A program made the translations under genes and the position numbers. Below, piece by piece: positions 1,239 through 17,503 of a stretch of DNA of 21,155 nt. The notes below the pieces were generated by a model. That model was not told the origin of the DNA. It did no database searches and worked only from the letters and a program-made list of their open reading frames with translations. Each line of letters begins with the position of its first letter. Position 1 is the first letter of the stretch. This stretch comes from a virus, in IMG/VR virus record IMGVR_UViG_3300048929_000466, positions 1-21,155 of that record. One strand, 5' to 3'.

Positions 1239-1982
1239 ATGGCTAAAAATCAGCATGATTTGGATCGCTACGTCCCGGCCGGGATTGCACGTGAGATTCG
1301 TCAGCGTTGTGGTTTTGGGTGTGTTCGTTGTGGGCTAGCATTCTACGATATTGAGCATTTCGATCCTGATTTCTCGGACGCGACGTCGCACAATCCGGAC
1401 GGCATGACGCTGCTCTGCATGCAATGTAATCAAAAAAGGGCGCGTGGGACGTTGTCTCGTGAAGCGGTGGCAGCGGCAAATGCAGCTCCGAAATGTCGTG
1501 AGCAAGGTTTTGCAAGCGAGGTGTTTGATCTACTCTCAACTACGCCAGTGGAAGTGGTATTCGCGGGCAGCACGATCATAGGTTGTCCGGTTCTCATTTC
1601 CATCAATGGGGAGCCAATTTTGTCCCTTAAGGCACCAGAAGTGCCGCGTCAGCCATATTTACTCTCGGGAATTTTCACGGATAAAGACGGATGTCCCACA
1701 CTGTCAATCGAGAATAATGTTTATTCCGTTTCGGACGCGAACTGGGACGTCACGCAGGAGGGGGCACTGACCACTATTCGTTCGGGGCGAGGTAAAATTG
1801 TTCTGCAGTTGCGGGTCACTCCTCCGTCGAAGATCATCGTCGAGCGCATAGAAATGCATTATGCTGGGGTCATGATTAGCGGCGATCAAGACGTACTCAA
1901 AGTCTCGCATGACGGCGGCGCCCACTGGACTGAACTGCGGAACTGCGTTGCTGGATATAGCTCGGTCGCTTTTGCATTCTGA
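1239..1982 (+). CDS. HNH endonuclease-domain protein
   Basis: A 247-aa protein. The N-terminal 70 residues form a zinc-supported HNH nuclease domain: C28-x2-C31 and C60-x2-C63 as structural ligands, E39-H40 as the first H motif, and H51-N52 plus N64 in the second part. HNH enzymes cut DNA with a single metal; in phages they serve as homing or packaging-associated nucleases, or as defence genes. The remaining ~170 residues are beta-rich, contain 'DGGAHWTEL' near the C terminus and resemble no domain I can name, so this is an HNH plus unknown-domain architecture rather than the short packaging HNH. Codon use and base composition are less GC-rich than in the structural genes, and it has its own upstream palindrome with TATAAT. 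Both suggest late acquisition as an independently expressed unit. The SD is weak (GGGG). Confidence 0.75.
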   Translation: MAKNQHDLDRYVPAGIAREIRQRCGFGCVRCGLAFYDIEHFDPDFSDATSHNPDGMTLLCMQCNQKRARGTLSREAVAAANAAPKCREQGFASEVFDLLSTTPVEVVFAGSTIIGCPVLISINGEPILSLKAPEVPRQPYLLSGIFTDKDGCPTLSIENNVYSVSDANWDVTQEGALTTIRSGRGKIVLQLRVTPPSKIIVERIEMHYAGVMISGDQDVLKVSHDGGAHWTELRNCVAGYSSVAFAF

Positions 1983-2243: not shown

Positions 2244-2405
2244 ATGACGCAAACGACGCACCCGACAAAGCAGCTCATCCGTGACTACTTGGACGACCGC
2301 ACCCGGTCTGACGATCCGCCGCCGTCTGCGGATGAAATTCGGCTACAGCTTGGGTGGCACCTGTTACCGGCGAGTCGCCAACCATCGGAAATCGTTGCCG
2401 ATTAG
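2244..2405 (+). CDS. Small phage protein (53 aa) of the 'IRxxLGW' type
   Basis: Starts at ATG 2244 with GAGGCGG upstream; the longer in-frame reading would run through the terminator and is rejected. The product has a basic/acidic N-terminal helix ('QLIRDYLDDR'), a Pro-rich linker with PPP, then 'EIRLQLGWHLL'. From memory, short phage proteins with a PPP linker and an IRxxLGW segment are common in betaproteobacterial and pseudomonad prophages; their function is unknown. Its last 42 bases overlap the end of the convergent minus-strand gene, and the accessory island begins at about its stop. The C terminus may therefore have been altered when the island arrived. Confidence 0.6.
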   Translation: MTQTTHPTKQLIRDYLDDRTRSDDPPPSADEIRLQLGWHLLPASRQPSEIVAD

Positions 2406-2810
2406 AGTCCAGATATTCCGCTCCTTTGCTGTGATAGATATGGCGACAGGGTCACTAGCAGGAAAGCTTTCCTCCAGGGCCAGGTCCAAAGTAGCGTCAA
2501 TGTCGCATGGCTGCTTGGGGCGCTCGCAGTAGTCTTTGGTACTGCTTTGACCACTGCGGCGAAGTTGTTCCGTCATCGCGGTTAGCAGCTCCACTGTCGA
2601 CGCGTGCGCTGTTGCGTGTCGTTGCCTCAGCCTTAAGTAGACGTGTTGCTCGGCCAGAGATTGGCGGTCGTTAAATTCCCGTTGGTAGCGCAGGACGAAT
2701 CCCGACTCACTGGCGGTCAAGCCTACAAGAGTCTCGTTCCCCGCAGTGTCGACTGATAGGGACCCGGACTGGCCAAGTTGAGCTCGTTCCTCTGGATTTA
2801 ATTTAAGCAT
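2364..2810 (-). CDS. Unknown small-protein family, copy A, with C-terminal SFPASDP motif (148 aa)
   Basis: The start is taken as ATG 2810, with a strong GGAGGTG immediately upstream; an in-frame GTG at 2828 would place that SD inside the coding sequence. Residues 1-70 share a pattern with two other minus-strand genes in the island: 'MLxL', an Arg, 'LSVD..G.E.LVGLT..ES.FVLRYQ', a central Tyr, and 'RH' near residue 64. A second module follows at residues 108-127, 'DLALEESFPASDPVAIS'. From memory this matches a short motif (ALEESFPASDP) that recurs in small proteobacterial proteins of unknown function. Residues 136-148 are encoded antisense to the convergent phage gene, so the natural C terminus may have been lost at the island junction. 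It is the third gene of a minus-strand operon. Function unknown. Confidence 0.65.
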   Translation of the reverse strand: MLKLNPEERAQLGQSGSLSVDTAGNETLVGLTASESGFVLRYQREFNDRQSLAEQHVYLRLRQRHATAHASTVELLTAMTEQLRRSGQSSTKDYCERPKQPCDIDATLDLALEESFPASDPVAISITAKERNIWTLIGNDFRWLATRR

Positions 2811-2821
2811 GTCACCTCCGG

Positions 2822-3136
2822 CTACCACAATGAGGCCATGGCCAGCAGCGTCGCGACACTGATTGGGCTTGGCGTGGGACGAGTCTTTGCGATGATTGTC
2901 CGTACTACGTCCGCCGGGCCGAGGTAGACTGCGGCGCCATCTGGCCCGTCCTTATAATGCAGATACGCGCCATTTGGTTCTCGGCTCACCCACATGTCCG
3001 TCACAATCGTGTCGAGAGGGTTCGACGCATTTACTGCGTCAATCTTGCCTCTAAGGCCAACCGTAATGTCCCGAATTGCAAGCTTTGTCTTTTCGGTTAC
3101 CAAGGGCATATACTTTGCCGCCGAATGGTATTTCAC
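2822..3136 (-). CDS. Hypothetical protein (104 aa), island operon
   Basis: Starts at GTG 3136, which overlaps the preceding stop as GTGA, a translational-coupling arrangement. An ATG nine codons later (3109) is an alternative but has no better SD. The stop lies 11 bases before the next gene's ATG, and the gap holds that gene's SD. The protein has a helical N-terminal part and a central beta-rich stretch ('DMWVSREPNGAYLHYKDGPDG', then 'AAVYLGPADVV'). The C terminus (about residues 92-104) is hydrophobic but too short for a confident membrane anchor. No signal peptide or known motif. I do not recognise the family. Confidence 0.5.
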   Translation of the reverse strand: MKYHSAAKYMPLVTEKTKLAIRDITVGLRGKIDAVNASNPLDTIVTDMWVSREPNGAYLHYKDGPDGAAVYLGPADVVRTIIAKTRPTPSPISVATLLAMASLW

Positions 3137-3342
3137 TCAGTGCCCGTAGCGACTGAAATGTGCTTTGGCGAGGGACGTCGCGGTCGGCGGTGAGTTTGAG
3201 ACGCGAGCGCCCGTAAAATCGTCGGTGCAGCTACTCCGTGGTCGATTAAAAAGTCCCATGCCGCAGCCGAACCTAAGGCGTCGTCAACAATGAGTCCGTT
3301 CTCGATTGCTTGTGCTATATCGAAGTTTTTCCTGAAGTCCAT
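3133..3342 (-). CDS. Hypothetical protein (69 aa), first gene of island operon
   Basis: ATG 3342 is chosen because AGAGGTG lies four bases upstream; the longer reading from GTG 3369 would include that SD. The product begins with a helical 'FDIAQAIENGLIVDDALGSAAAWDFLIDHGV' type region, reminiscent of short regulatory or toxin-antitoxin-sized proteins. It ends in a basic tail ('THRRPRRPSPKH'). No catalytic residues or HTH are evident. It precedes the 104-aa gene with a GTGA overlap, so the three genes 3342 to 2364 form one minus-strand transcription unit. Function unknown. Confidence 0.5.
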   Translation of the reverse strand: MDFRKNFDIAQAIENGLIVDDALGSAAAWDFLIDHGVAAPTILRALASQTHRRPRRPSPKHISVATGTE

Positions 3343-3491
3343 TTGGCACCTCTTTATGTGAAAGAACACCGTAGCACGTTAACTGTGTCAGCCGTGATCT
3401 AGGCGTAAATAAGACTCGTAGATGAAACACGGGGGTAGAAAACGGAAGCATGCACTGCTTATTGCGGGAAGCGTTGCTTACTGCGCTTCGT

Positions 3492-3737
3492 TTAATTGCC
3501 GGGGCAATGATTATTTGAAATTTTTGTCCGCCTTGCAAGCAGATGGCGATCCGCCAAGCACTTATATTTGAGGACATTGCTGATGTTTTTCGCCATAGCG
3601 TTTTGCGTTTGGTAGCGAAGGAAAAAGTGCGACTCTGCGAAAGATAAGCCAACCAATATCTCGTGACCACCTTCATCAGAAGACAGAGCATTGACAGAGT
3701 GGAGGAACTCGCGGCCCTGACGTGTGAGATCCAGCAT
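3492..3737 (-). CDS. Unknown small-protein family, copy B (81 aa)
   Basis: ATG 3737 is preceded by AGGAG at good spacing and brings the N terminus into register with copies A and C; an ATG 20 codons upstream (3797) is rejected for that reason. The family pattern is clear: 'MLDL', Arg, 'ALSSDEGGHEILVGLSFAES', then 'FFLRYQ', a Tyr about 15 residues on, and 'DRHLLARR'. The protein ends soon after the shared region, so the shared ~70 residues behave as a self-contained domain. It stands alone with ~150-180 bp gaps on both sides. A weak promoter-like pair lies upstream (TTGCAT, 17 bases, CATAGT on the minus strand). Function unknown. Confidence 0.6.
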   Translation of the reverse strand: MLDLTRQGREFLHSVNALSSDEGGHEILVGLSFAESHFFLRYQTQNAMAKNISNVLKYKCLADRHLLARRTKISNNHCPGN

Positions 3738-3916
3738 TTCACTCTCCTGGTAGCTGTCGCAGACAACGACTATGTTCCCAGAGTCGATGGTATGCAATCC
3801 CGAGTTCGCCGCCTAAGCGTAGGACGTTGGCTTCTCTCACAAAAATATAGCTGGCGCAGCACACGCCCAGATCGACACGGATTAGGCCTCGCACTGAAGC
3901 CTGGGCACTGTCAATT

Positions 3917-4177
3917 CTATTTCTCGCCGGTGCCAAGGCGATTCGGTCGTAGCCGGAGGCTGTTCAATTGTCGTGAGGTGACATGCCGATCACGCAACTG
4001 CCGGTATGCCGCCGATTCCGAAGCCCCAACGTTCTCAGCCGCAGTCCTCTCCACTGCGAGAACGAACTGCGATTCGTCTACTGTGAGGCCGCGCAGCGTC
4101 TCAGCGCCGGCGGCATCGGTGGTCAGAGCATCGTTGGCGCGAAGCATTTTTCGCTCAATTTCCGCGAGATTTAGCAT
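3917..4177 (-). CDS. Unknown small-protein family, copy C (86 aa)
   Basis: ATG 4177 is preceded by GGGAGAG four bases upstream. The protein repeats the family pattern of copies A and B: 'MLNL', Arg at 9, 'ALTTDAAGAETLRGLTVDES', 'FVLAVER', a Tyr near residue 58 and 'RDRHVTSR' near 62-69. It diverges most in the 'LRYQ' segment, which reads LAVER here. The end is Arg-rich. A good minus-strand promoter lies just upstream (4214-4242). No membrane segment, signal peptide or known catalytic motif is visible. Small size, copy number and independent promoters suggest a regulatory or binding role, which is inference only. Confidence 0.6.
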   Translation of the reverse strand: MLNLAEIERKMLRANDALTTDAAGAETLRGLTVDESQFVLAVERTAAENVGASESAAYRQLRDRHVTSRQLNSLRLRPNRLGTGEK

Positions 4178-4242: not shown

Positions 4243-4342
4243 CGGTTGTCAGTTACGTGCGCGAGAGTTGAACCGAGGGTGAACCGATGTTGGCGAGGAA
4301 TCGATAGACAGGCCTTCCGTTTCTGGGAAATCCACCAAATTG

Positions 4343-4416
4343 GCGGGCAGAGCAGGACAGTACTGCGTTGGCCTTCCAAGCCGACATTTGCGGGTTCGAA
4401 TCCGTTGCCCGCTCCA
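4343..4416 (+). pseudogene. tRNA-Gly(TCC)-like sequence, degenerate
   Basis: A 74-base tRNA-like sequence ending in an encoded CCA. The acceptor stem GCGGGCA (4343-4349) pairs fully with TGCCCGC (4406-4412). The D-arm GCAG/CTGC has a 7-base loop (4356-4362) lacking the usual GG. The anticodon stem TTGGC/GCCGA encloses loop CTTCCAA with anticodon TCC (4375-4377). The T-loop TTCGAAT (4395-4401) is normal, but the T-stem is defective: GCGGG faces only CCGT, one base short of the normal five. Both ends resemble classical glyT-type tRNA-Gly(TCC). The missing T-stem base and absent D-loop GG suggest a decayed phage tRNA or captured host fragment. A variant functional tRNA or a tRNA-mimic element cannot be excluded. 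Confidence 0.6.
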
Positions 4417-5173: not shown

Positions 5174-5419
5174 ATGAACAAGCACCAGCACCATACGAAC
5201 AACGCAGTGCTTGGAGCACCCAAGGAATGGGACCAGGCGCAGTTGCCATGCGACGCGCTGCCGATCAGCCGTATCGAGGTGGAGGGCATGCCTGCTGTGG
5301 TGAGCTACTGGAAGCCGTCCGAGAACGAGCTGGCCATGCTGGCCGCCGGCGGGTCAGTCGCGCTGACCATGCTGGGCGTGACGATGCCGCCTGTGATGCT
5401 GGCGGTCGACCCGCTGTAA
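5174..5419 (+). CDS. Small hypothetical phage protein (81 aa)
   Basis: ATG 5174 has GAGG six bases upstream. The first 25 residues are polar, with His-rich 'KHQHH'. The rest follows a pattern I associate with small phage proteins encoded ahead of terminase genes: 'WDQAQLPCDALPISRIEVEG', 'SYWKPSENELAMLAAGGSVALTMLG', then 'PPVMLAVDPL'. There is no membrane segment long enough to span and no catalytic motif. Its stop overlaps the next start (TAATG), so it is translationally coupled to the metallopeptidase. Function unknown. Confidence 0.65.
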   Translation: MNKHQHHTNNAVLGAPKEWDQAQLPCDALPISRIEVEGMPAVVSYWKPSENELAMLAAGGSVALTMLGVTMPPVMLAVDPL

Positions 5420-6063
5420 TGGCAAAGAAGGCCGCCGCGCCCGGCTGGACCAGGCCACTGCCGCCGGAGAGTTTCACCGACCCGCTGAGCGCTCGCTACG
5501 CGCCGGCACCCGAGGTGCTGAATTGGGCTCGGGCCGAGATCCTCACCGAGGGCGGCCAGCTGCACAATCCCGATCACGCCCACCTGGAGTACTGCGACGT
5601 GCAGTTCCTGTGGGCGCCTGGCAGCTTTAACAAGCAGGGCCGCACAGTGATTGGCCAGTGCGAAGAGCTGCTGTTCCGCTGTGGACCGTGGCAGAAGGGC
5701 CGCCAGCAACAGCAGATGGCCGACTGGTTCGGCATGGTTCCCGATTTCCTGATCACCCTGGATGCCAGCTACTGCCTGACCTGCAGTGACGCGGAGTTCT
5801 GCGCGCTGGTCGAGCACGAGCTGTATCACATCGGCCAGGAGCGCGATCTCTTCGGCGGCCCGGCATTCACCAAGGACGGATTGCCCAAGCTGATGATTCG
5901 CGGGCACGACGTCGAGGAGTTCGTCGGCGTGGTACGCCGCTACGGTGTGGGCCATCCGGACGGCACGCTGGCCCAGCTGGTTGCCGCTGCAAACGCCGCG
6001 CCGGAGGTGGCAAAACTCAACATCGCGAGGGCATGCGGAACCTGTCTACTTAAGGCTGCGTAG
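5419..6063 (+). CDS. Putative phage metallopeptidase (HExxH)
   Basis: A 214-aa protein with a zinc-peptidase motif HELYH at residues 133-137 and a second conserved-looking His at 163 ('RGHDVEEF') as candidate third ligand. This fits the family named putative phage metallopeptidase domain, encoded in many betaproteobacterial prophages beside the terminase genes. The start at 5419 shares one base with the preceding stop; the frame is open upstream, but the earlier codons are shadow sequence of the 81-aa gene. The substrate is unknown; head-protein processing or host-protein cleavage are possibilities only. Four Cys residues lie before the active site (in 'CGPW', 'YCLTC' and 'FCALVEH'). Confidence 0.8.
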   Translation: MAKKAAAPGWTRPLPPESFTDPLSARYAPAPEVLNWARAEILTEGGQLHNPDHAHLEYCDVQFLWAPGSFNKQGRTVIGQCEELLFRCGPWQKGRQQQQMADWFGMVPDFLITLDASYCLTCSDAEFCALVEHELYHIGQERDLFGGPAFTKDGLPKLMIRGHDVEEFVGVVRRYGVGHPDGTLAQLVAAANAAPEVAKLNIARACGTCLLKAA

Positions 6064-16816: not shown

Positions 16817-17383
16817 TTAGGACTGCTTGCGGCGCCGCGCGATGGCGCCGAGTAAGCCTAGGCCGCCGAGCAGCATGGCATAGGTTTCTGCCTCTGGGAC
16901 CGGCAGAACCGCCACGCCTTCTATGCCGGGATTAGTGCTGTTGTAGAAATGCGGTCCCGTGTAATTGGCTCCGATGGCGAACATGAACCAATTGACCTGG
17001 GGTTGTAGGGAGAGGCTCGTTTCGGACACGACGAAGTGCGCGGTATCCCCACCAGCAAGCATATTAAGAAATTTGCCATCAACCCAATTTGCTGTGTAGA
17101 TTCGATCCGATCCCCCTATCTGTGCGTTAGTCCAAGTGCCCCAGATTCCGTAGTCGAAGTCGCCGCTTTGACGTCCGGTCGTTGGGTTTTTAAGCTCAAC
17201 ACCGAAGAAATATAGCGAACCGGCATTTAAATTATTGGTGACGCTGAAATCGTAAGTCCAGTTGTTCGCAGAGCCGTTCACGGTGTAGCTCACATCAATC
17301 GGTGCCGCAATCGCGTACGACGTGAAAAGTGTCGCAGTGATAGTCGCGCAGACGAGTGCGATCGAGCGCAGAATATTTTTCAT
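16817..17383 (-). CDS. PEP-CTERM sorting-domain protein
   Basis: A 188-aa exported protein. Residues 1-26 are a signal peptide (basic 'MKNILRS', hydrophobic core, cleavage after AIA). The mature part is beta-rich ('GSANNWTYDFSVTNN', 'LYFFGVELKNP', 'DFDYGIWGTW'). The last 27 residues are a PEP-CTERM tail: 'VPEAETYAMLLGGLGLLG' then 'AIARRRKQS', with PEA for PEP at 163-165. Such proteins are processed by an exosortase and linked to exopolysaccharide and biofilm formation. ATG 17383 is preferred over an ATG 12 codons earlier because the signal peptide then starts correctly. It runs against the phage late genes with its own terminator and an AT-rich upstream region, so it is a lysogenic-conversion cargo gene needing a host exosortase. 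Confidence 0.85.
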   Translation of the reverse strand: MKNILRSIALVCATITATLFTSYAIAAPIDVSYTVNGSANNWTYDFSVTNNLNAGSLYFFGVELKNPTTGRQSGDFDYGIWGTWTNAQIGGSDRIYTANWVDGKFLNMLAGGDTAHFVVSETSLSLQPQVNWFMFAIGANYTGPHFYNSTNPGIEGVAVLPVPEAETYAMLLGGLGLLGAIARRRKQS

Positions 17384-17503
17384 CGTTATCTCTACCTTCA
17401 GTAGTTTTAGAACGTTCATTGTACATGCATTAATTGCAACTTATTAATATATTTATACTATCGAAAAGCCGGCGTAAGCAGGGATTTTCGCGCGGAGAAA
17501 TGC
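17384..17503. promoter_or_regulatory. AT-rich divergent promoter region of the PEP-CTERM cassette
   Basis: The segment 17410-17461 is markedly AT-rich. Minus strand: TACAAT (about 17424-17419; 5 of 6) is a candidate -10 for the PEP-CTERM gene, without a clear -35. Plus strand: TTGCAA (17434-17439), 16 bases, TACTAT (17456-17461) could start transcription into the connector gene at 17504. Neither is strong; the assignment is tentative. Confidence 0.35.

Follow-up and report, generated by a model that had tools for sequence, protein, structure and literature searches.

A previously undescribed small protein family of phages and Duganella hosts, possibly a borrowed accessory of bacterial signaling

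Why would a phage keep several diverged copies of one small gene beside a lone response-regulator receiver? The question is raised by an IMG/VR virus record, 21,155 bases long (the window, meaning the whole stretch of DNA that was analyzed), which encodes three small proteins on its minus strand, here called A1, A2, and A3. The following sections describe their relationship, their surroundings in phages and hosts, and the role that these surroundings suggest.

Three diverged copies of one domain

A1 (2364–2810, 148 residues), A2 (3492–3737, 81 residues), and A3 (3917–4177, 86 residues) are encoded by open reading frames on the minus strand, and all three start with MLxL. A1 carries the A domain in residues 1–85, followed by a disordered linker and the tail LDLALEESFPASDPVAISI. 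Over the first 70 residues, A3 is 41% identical to A1 and 36% identical to A2, and the alignment of the three copies contains 20 invariant columns in 70 (M1, L2, L4, R9, L12, L18, D21, G24, E26, L28, G30, L31, E35, S36, F38, L40, Y58, L61, R64, and H65). A tblastn search of the window with A3 as query returns exactly the other two copies, with E-values of 4.4e-11 and 1.6e-7. These values are far below chance, which places the three copies in one family. The original prediction of three diverged minus-strand versions of one domain of about 70 residues is thereby borne out, and the similarity holds at the profile level, both among the three copies and to members outside the window.

The starts of all three genes are preceded by Shine-Dalgarno-like sequences as judged by reading (GGGAGA, AGGAGA, and GGAGGTGA), in agreement with the proposal that each copy has its own. 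A good promoter had also been proposed for at least one copy. This part is not supported, as the three sigma-70-like sites in the region are not above the expectation from shuffled sequences (1.9 ± 1.4), and the site upstream of A3 scores only 9 of 12.

Predicted fold, constraint, and comparison with known families

The AlphaFold models of A1 and A3, two of the three copies, share a predicted fold with the order helix, β-hairpin, helix, and long helix (helix 6–14/15, strands 18–20 and 26–28, helix 33–45/44, and the long helix from about 52–56), as would be anticipated for relatives. The mean pLDDT is 78 for A3, and the pLDDT exceeds 90 over most of the domain in A1. Orthologous A copies in related phages differ by dS values that range from 0.3 to saturation and by dN values of 0.05–0.25. 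The resulting dN/dS of about 0.1 in most pairs shows purifying selection, so that the A genes are translated and constrained.

No A member matches a family in Pfam, NCBIfam, or PHROGs at the curated cut-off, near it, or with a significant E-value, and none of 23 members compared to Pfam gave a match. A profile search of PDB chains with the A family returned no match, and Foldseek against the PDB and viral models found nothing at E ≤ 0.001 for the A domain. The A family is thus a previously undescribed small single-domain protein family, which upholds the initial impression that it belongs to no described one. Aqs1 (PDB 6v7u/6v7w), a small helical anti-quorum-sensing protein of a phage, is low in the Foldseek list with a probability of at most 0.14; this match is not significant and leaves homology with the A domain unsupported.

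The accessory island of the phage

On the phage, the A genes sit in an accessory (moron) island together with family B and a lone receiver. Read from right to left, the minus-strand array consists of the receiver (4844–4482), A3, A2, B (3342–3133), C (3136–2822), and A1, and its strand is opposite to that of the structural genes. The receiver, the first gene of the array, encodes a stand-alone response-regulator domain of 120 residues that matches PF00072 with 57.6 bits against a cut-off of 30.2 and, by reading, keeps the acidic pocket, the phospho-acceptor Asp, and the conserved Lys. Gene B (69 residues from the ATG at 3342) belongs to a second undescribed small family. Gene C (104 residues) has homologs in two other loci with A genes (L009 and L068). 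C starts at a GTG inside the last codons of B, with an overlap of 4 bp, and A1 starts 11 bp past the end of C, so that B, C, and A1 look like one coupled unit. The initial view of independent cassettes, set apart by gaps or unrelated genes, is therefore partly right: it fits A2 and A3 but not A1, which is packed behind B and C and apparently coupled with them.

The G+C content of the island is 54%, compared to 62% in the structural genes; low G+C is common for phage morons. In five related phages (L004, L006, L009, L086, and L090), the A genes occupy an equivalent slot on the opposite strand. This slot lies between the end of the Q-like/replication (early) genes and the packaging genes, and portal proteins were confirmed in L071 and L090.

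A tRNA-Gly (TCC) gene (4342–4415, plus strand) is located between the receiver and A3 on the opposite strand. The same tRNA gene lies beside A genes in three further contigs (L098, 9785–9859; L099, 1544–1617; L105, 4631–4705), and Met-Trp-Thr tRNA arrays lie beside A genes in two (L103, 1968–2209; L107, 1227–1468). Elsewhere in the window, a protein of 247 residues (1239–1982, plus strand) matches phrog_6544 with an E-value of 1.5e-74 and has a weak HNH-like stretch near its N terminus. Another protein is encoded on the minus strand, against the structural genes (16817–17419). Its start resembles a signal peptide, and its C-terminal VPEAETYAMLLGGLGLLGAIARRRK can be read as a PEP-CTERM sorting signal.

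Distribution and subfamilies

The nearest copies of the window's A genes are found on the viral contigs L004–L008, one of them (L008) being the counterpart of a prophage in Duganella aquatilis FT26W. These relatives identify the window as a phage of a Duganella-type host. Further phage contigs were found with a degenerate DNA pattern, as a mixed A3 alignment had too few conserved stretches. About ten distinct related phages carry one or two A copies, which supports the claim that the family is repeatedly retained on phages. Neither A1 nor A2 alone as query found viral relatives, and phage and plasmid records yielded nothing closely related to A3. In L004, the second A copy (5398–5616, plus strand) has an ATT-encoded Ile where its relatives have the start Met (ILNLTD...). 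The wider match frame of this copy contains stops, and its start may lie elsewhere or the gene may be in decay.

A profile search detects the A family in 20 of the 75 genomes from the genus of D. aquatilis, at most three copies per genome. In a set of 394 genomes taken from the taxonomic family, one genome (G323) is the sole match outside that genus set. About five to six of 25 host copies lie beside recognizable phage genes and the others are chromosomal, so that the expected clustering of homologs in prophages was not found for most host copies. A distant branch with the motif EKHExARL occurs elsewhere in the Pseudomonadota. Its members, some of them on plasmids of Pseudomonas sp. MPC6 and Microvirga sp. 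VF16, are annotated as hypothetical or carry no annotation. The distant and main branches are joined by an hhalign probability of 98.9.

The subfamilies were assigned with a maximum-likelihood tree. A3 falls inside a mainly phage clade (support 96/95), the phage ‘a’ subfamily, and is 69–77% identical over its length to the copies in L004–L008. A2 groups with phage L094 and with a host clade of chromosomal copies that, in other Duganella, adjoin a permease gene of the FtsX/MacB type (98/93), with a weak inner fork (90/41). The sister group of A1 consists of four host proteins that have the same tail, LDxALxxSFPASDPxAISI (99/96). The three copies thus belong to three subfamilies with relatives elsewhere, which argues that they were gathered rather than duplicated in place.

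The C-terminal motif LDxALxxSFPASDPxAI is recurrent (window 2410–2500, minus strand; L116, 3157–3330; L133, 3078–3293). It is found at the end of A1, in host A proteins, and in other small proteins near the kinase-like gene described below, and the literature searched contained no mention of an FPASDP motif. A different extension is present in Duganella proteins of the L030/L031 type, in which DUF2158 (PF09926) follows at the C terminus of the A domain. DUF2158 is a domain separate from the A domain and is absent from the window copies.

A rare histidine kinase–like neighbor

Receivers adjoin A genes in the window, L004/L006, L068, and L085. Among 90 near neighbors of A genes, three contain a receiver and three a HATPase_c domain. 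Since host genomes hold at least 138 receivers each, receiver adjacency at host A loci is near background, and a general enrichment of receivers or kinases beside A genes, as had been anticipated, was dropped. A BLAST cluster of “receiver-like” neighbors was also set aside, as it turned out to hold many kinases and chemoreceptors.

One particular gene behaves differently from this background. It encodes a histidine kinase–like protein of 374–377 residues with HATPase_c, has seven copies in 20 genomes, and adjoins an A gene in three of the seven cases. In L081 and L083 (genomes G040 and G072), A is located upstream of the kinase-like gene and the frames overlap by 4 bp, whereas in L080 (G045) the kinase-like gene comes first and A follows after 97 bp. 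Adjacency within 2.5 kb is expected 0.006 times (Poisson P of 3.5e-8). The G040 and G072 loci are orthologous, leaving two independent cases, and P is about 2e-5 when they are counted once. A1 is sister to the clade that holds the kinase-overlapping host copies (99/96). The A copy of L080 forms a group with the phage ‘b’ copies (83/71).

Most A genes are without such a neighbor. A search for undetected A genes alongside the remaining kinase-like copies found none, and the distant A branch on the Pseudomonas plasmid has no kinase-like neighbor. At the level of genomes, A (20/75) and the kinase-like gene (25/75) occur together in six cases compared to about 6.7 expected. The kinase-like protein of L080 and L081 matches HATPase_c alone; an RsbRD_N label for it was rejected, as the RsbRD_N match is confined to the more distant kinase of L068, to which its similarity is remote.

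Family B is characterized by the motif AxxFLxxxxVxxxxIxRVLxxxxRR and has about seven copies per Duganella genome. It is located within 2.5 kb of three of 25 host A genes, compared to 0.13 expected, and in L084 two A and two B genes alternate. B is also common near kinase-like genes, a link that is biased because kinase loci supplied part of the seed sequences of the B profile. Islands in which B clusters with kinase-like genes were noted, e.g., five copies within about 10 kb on contig C31 of G049.

Proposed role and its alternatives

A protein-binding accessory role is the most likely one in view of the consistently small size and long helix, the adjacent genes, and the absence of any signature of DNA binding or catalysis. 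Tentatively, the A domain can be read as an accessory that docks on a host signaling protein and is carried by phages as a moron. It would bind a host signaling protein, which for some subfamilies would be the rare histidine kinase–like protein, and the bound domain would modulate the activity of this partner. By acquiring different A subfamilies, phages could then retune host signaling in the lysogen. Here we infer binding to a kinase or receiver, as well as the direction of the effect and expression from the prophage. The earlier suggestion of a regulatory or partner-binding module is kept in its binding part, which the overlap or adjacency of some host copies with the kinase-like gene makes plausible.

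A somewhat broader reading is also a serious possibility, namely that A is a general protein-binding or adaptor domain with many unrelated partners. That A lies near the kinase in two lineages and near receivers on phages would then be opportunistic, and the phage copies might serve, e.g., host takeover or superinfection exclusion. The widely varying neighbors (permease, porin, TonB receptor, RibD, and phage genes) fit such a domain, as do the C-terminal extensions, which differ between members (DUF2158 in L030/L031 and the SFPASDP tail in other proteins), and the missing genome-level co-occurrence with the kinase-like gene. What speaks against it is that A adjoins a gene with zero to two copies per genome in two independent arrangements, one of them overlapping, which is unlikely by chance. 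Host signaling proteins are named, with due reserve, as the best-supported candidate partners of the A domain.

A role of the A proteins in transcription, as small DNA-binding regulators of the prophage or of its morons, is improbable. Their size, their retention on prophages, and the basic C-terminal end of A3 would suit such a function, but they match no DNA-binding family and the models lack an obvious helix-turn-helix or ribbon-helix-helix order; the Foldseek matches to DtxR/CarD-type regulators are weak and non-significant (E of 0.4 or worse, high rmsd). A prophage-borne toxin-antitoxin or anti-phage defense module is more improbable still. Small paired genes in a moron slot are reminiscent of such modules, and two of the 90 neighbors are HicA toxin genes. 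PADLOC, however, matched none of A, B, C, and the kinase-like protein, a constant toxin-like partner is absent, and A copies also occur singly.

Phage proteins that act on response regulators and kinases are exemplified by two known systems. TorI of prophage KplE1 is a small protein that binds and inhibits the host response regulator TorR, and its C-terminal part, which includes a long helix, makes protein contacts (PMC3509656). The likeness to the docking role proposed for the A domain is a functional analogy only: TorI is a winged-helix excisionase, while the A domain shows no TorI/Xis family match or integrase link and has the helix-hairpin-helix-helix order instead of a winged helix. PIT4 of Pseudomonas phage LSL4 was reported to bind the histidine-kinase domains of several host two-component systems (PMC10714779). 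The likeness to the role proposed for A lies in this described function; PIT4 is encoded by an early gene of a lytic phage, and the A family occurs in hosts as well.

A bolder extension, judged unlikely, is that Duganella phages collect different subfamilies of a host-encoded kinase-partner domain and a lone receiver as a modular kit that would rewire several host signaling pathways in the lysogen, with A and B as two new kinds of small two-component accessory.

The analysis adds an undescribed, constrained protein family that is common to phages and hosts, and the host A copy whose frame overlaps the rare kinase-like gene offers an experimental handle on it. As far as gene order and relationships indicate, the A family could be an accessory borrowed from bacterial signaling. 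If A proteins bind such kinases, phages would recruit host signaling partners as morons, for which isolated examples such as TorI and PIT4 are known to date.
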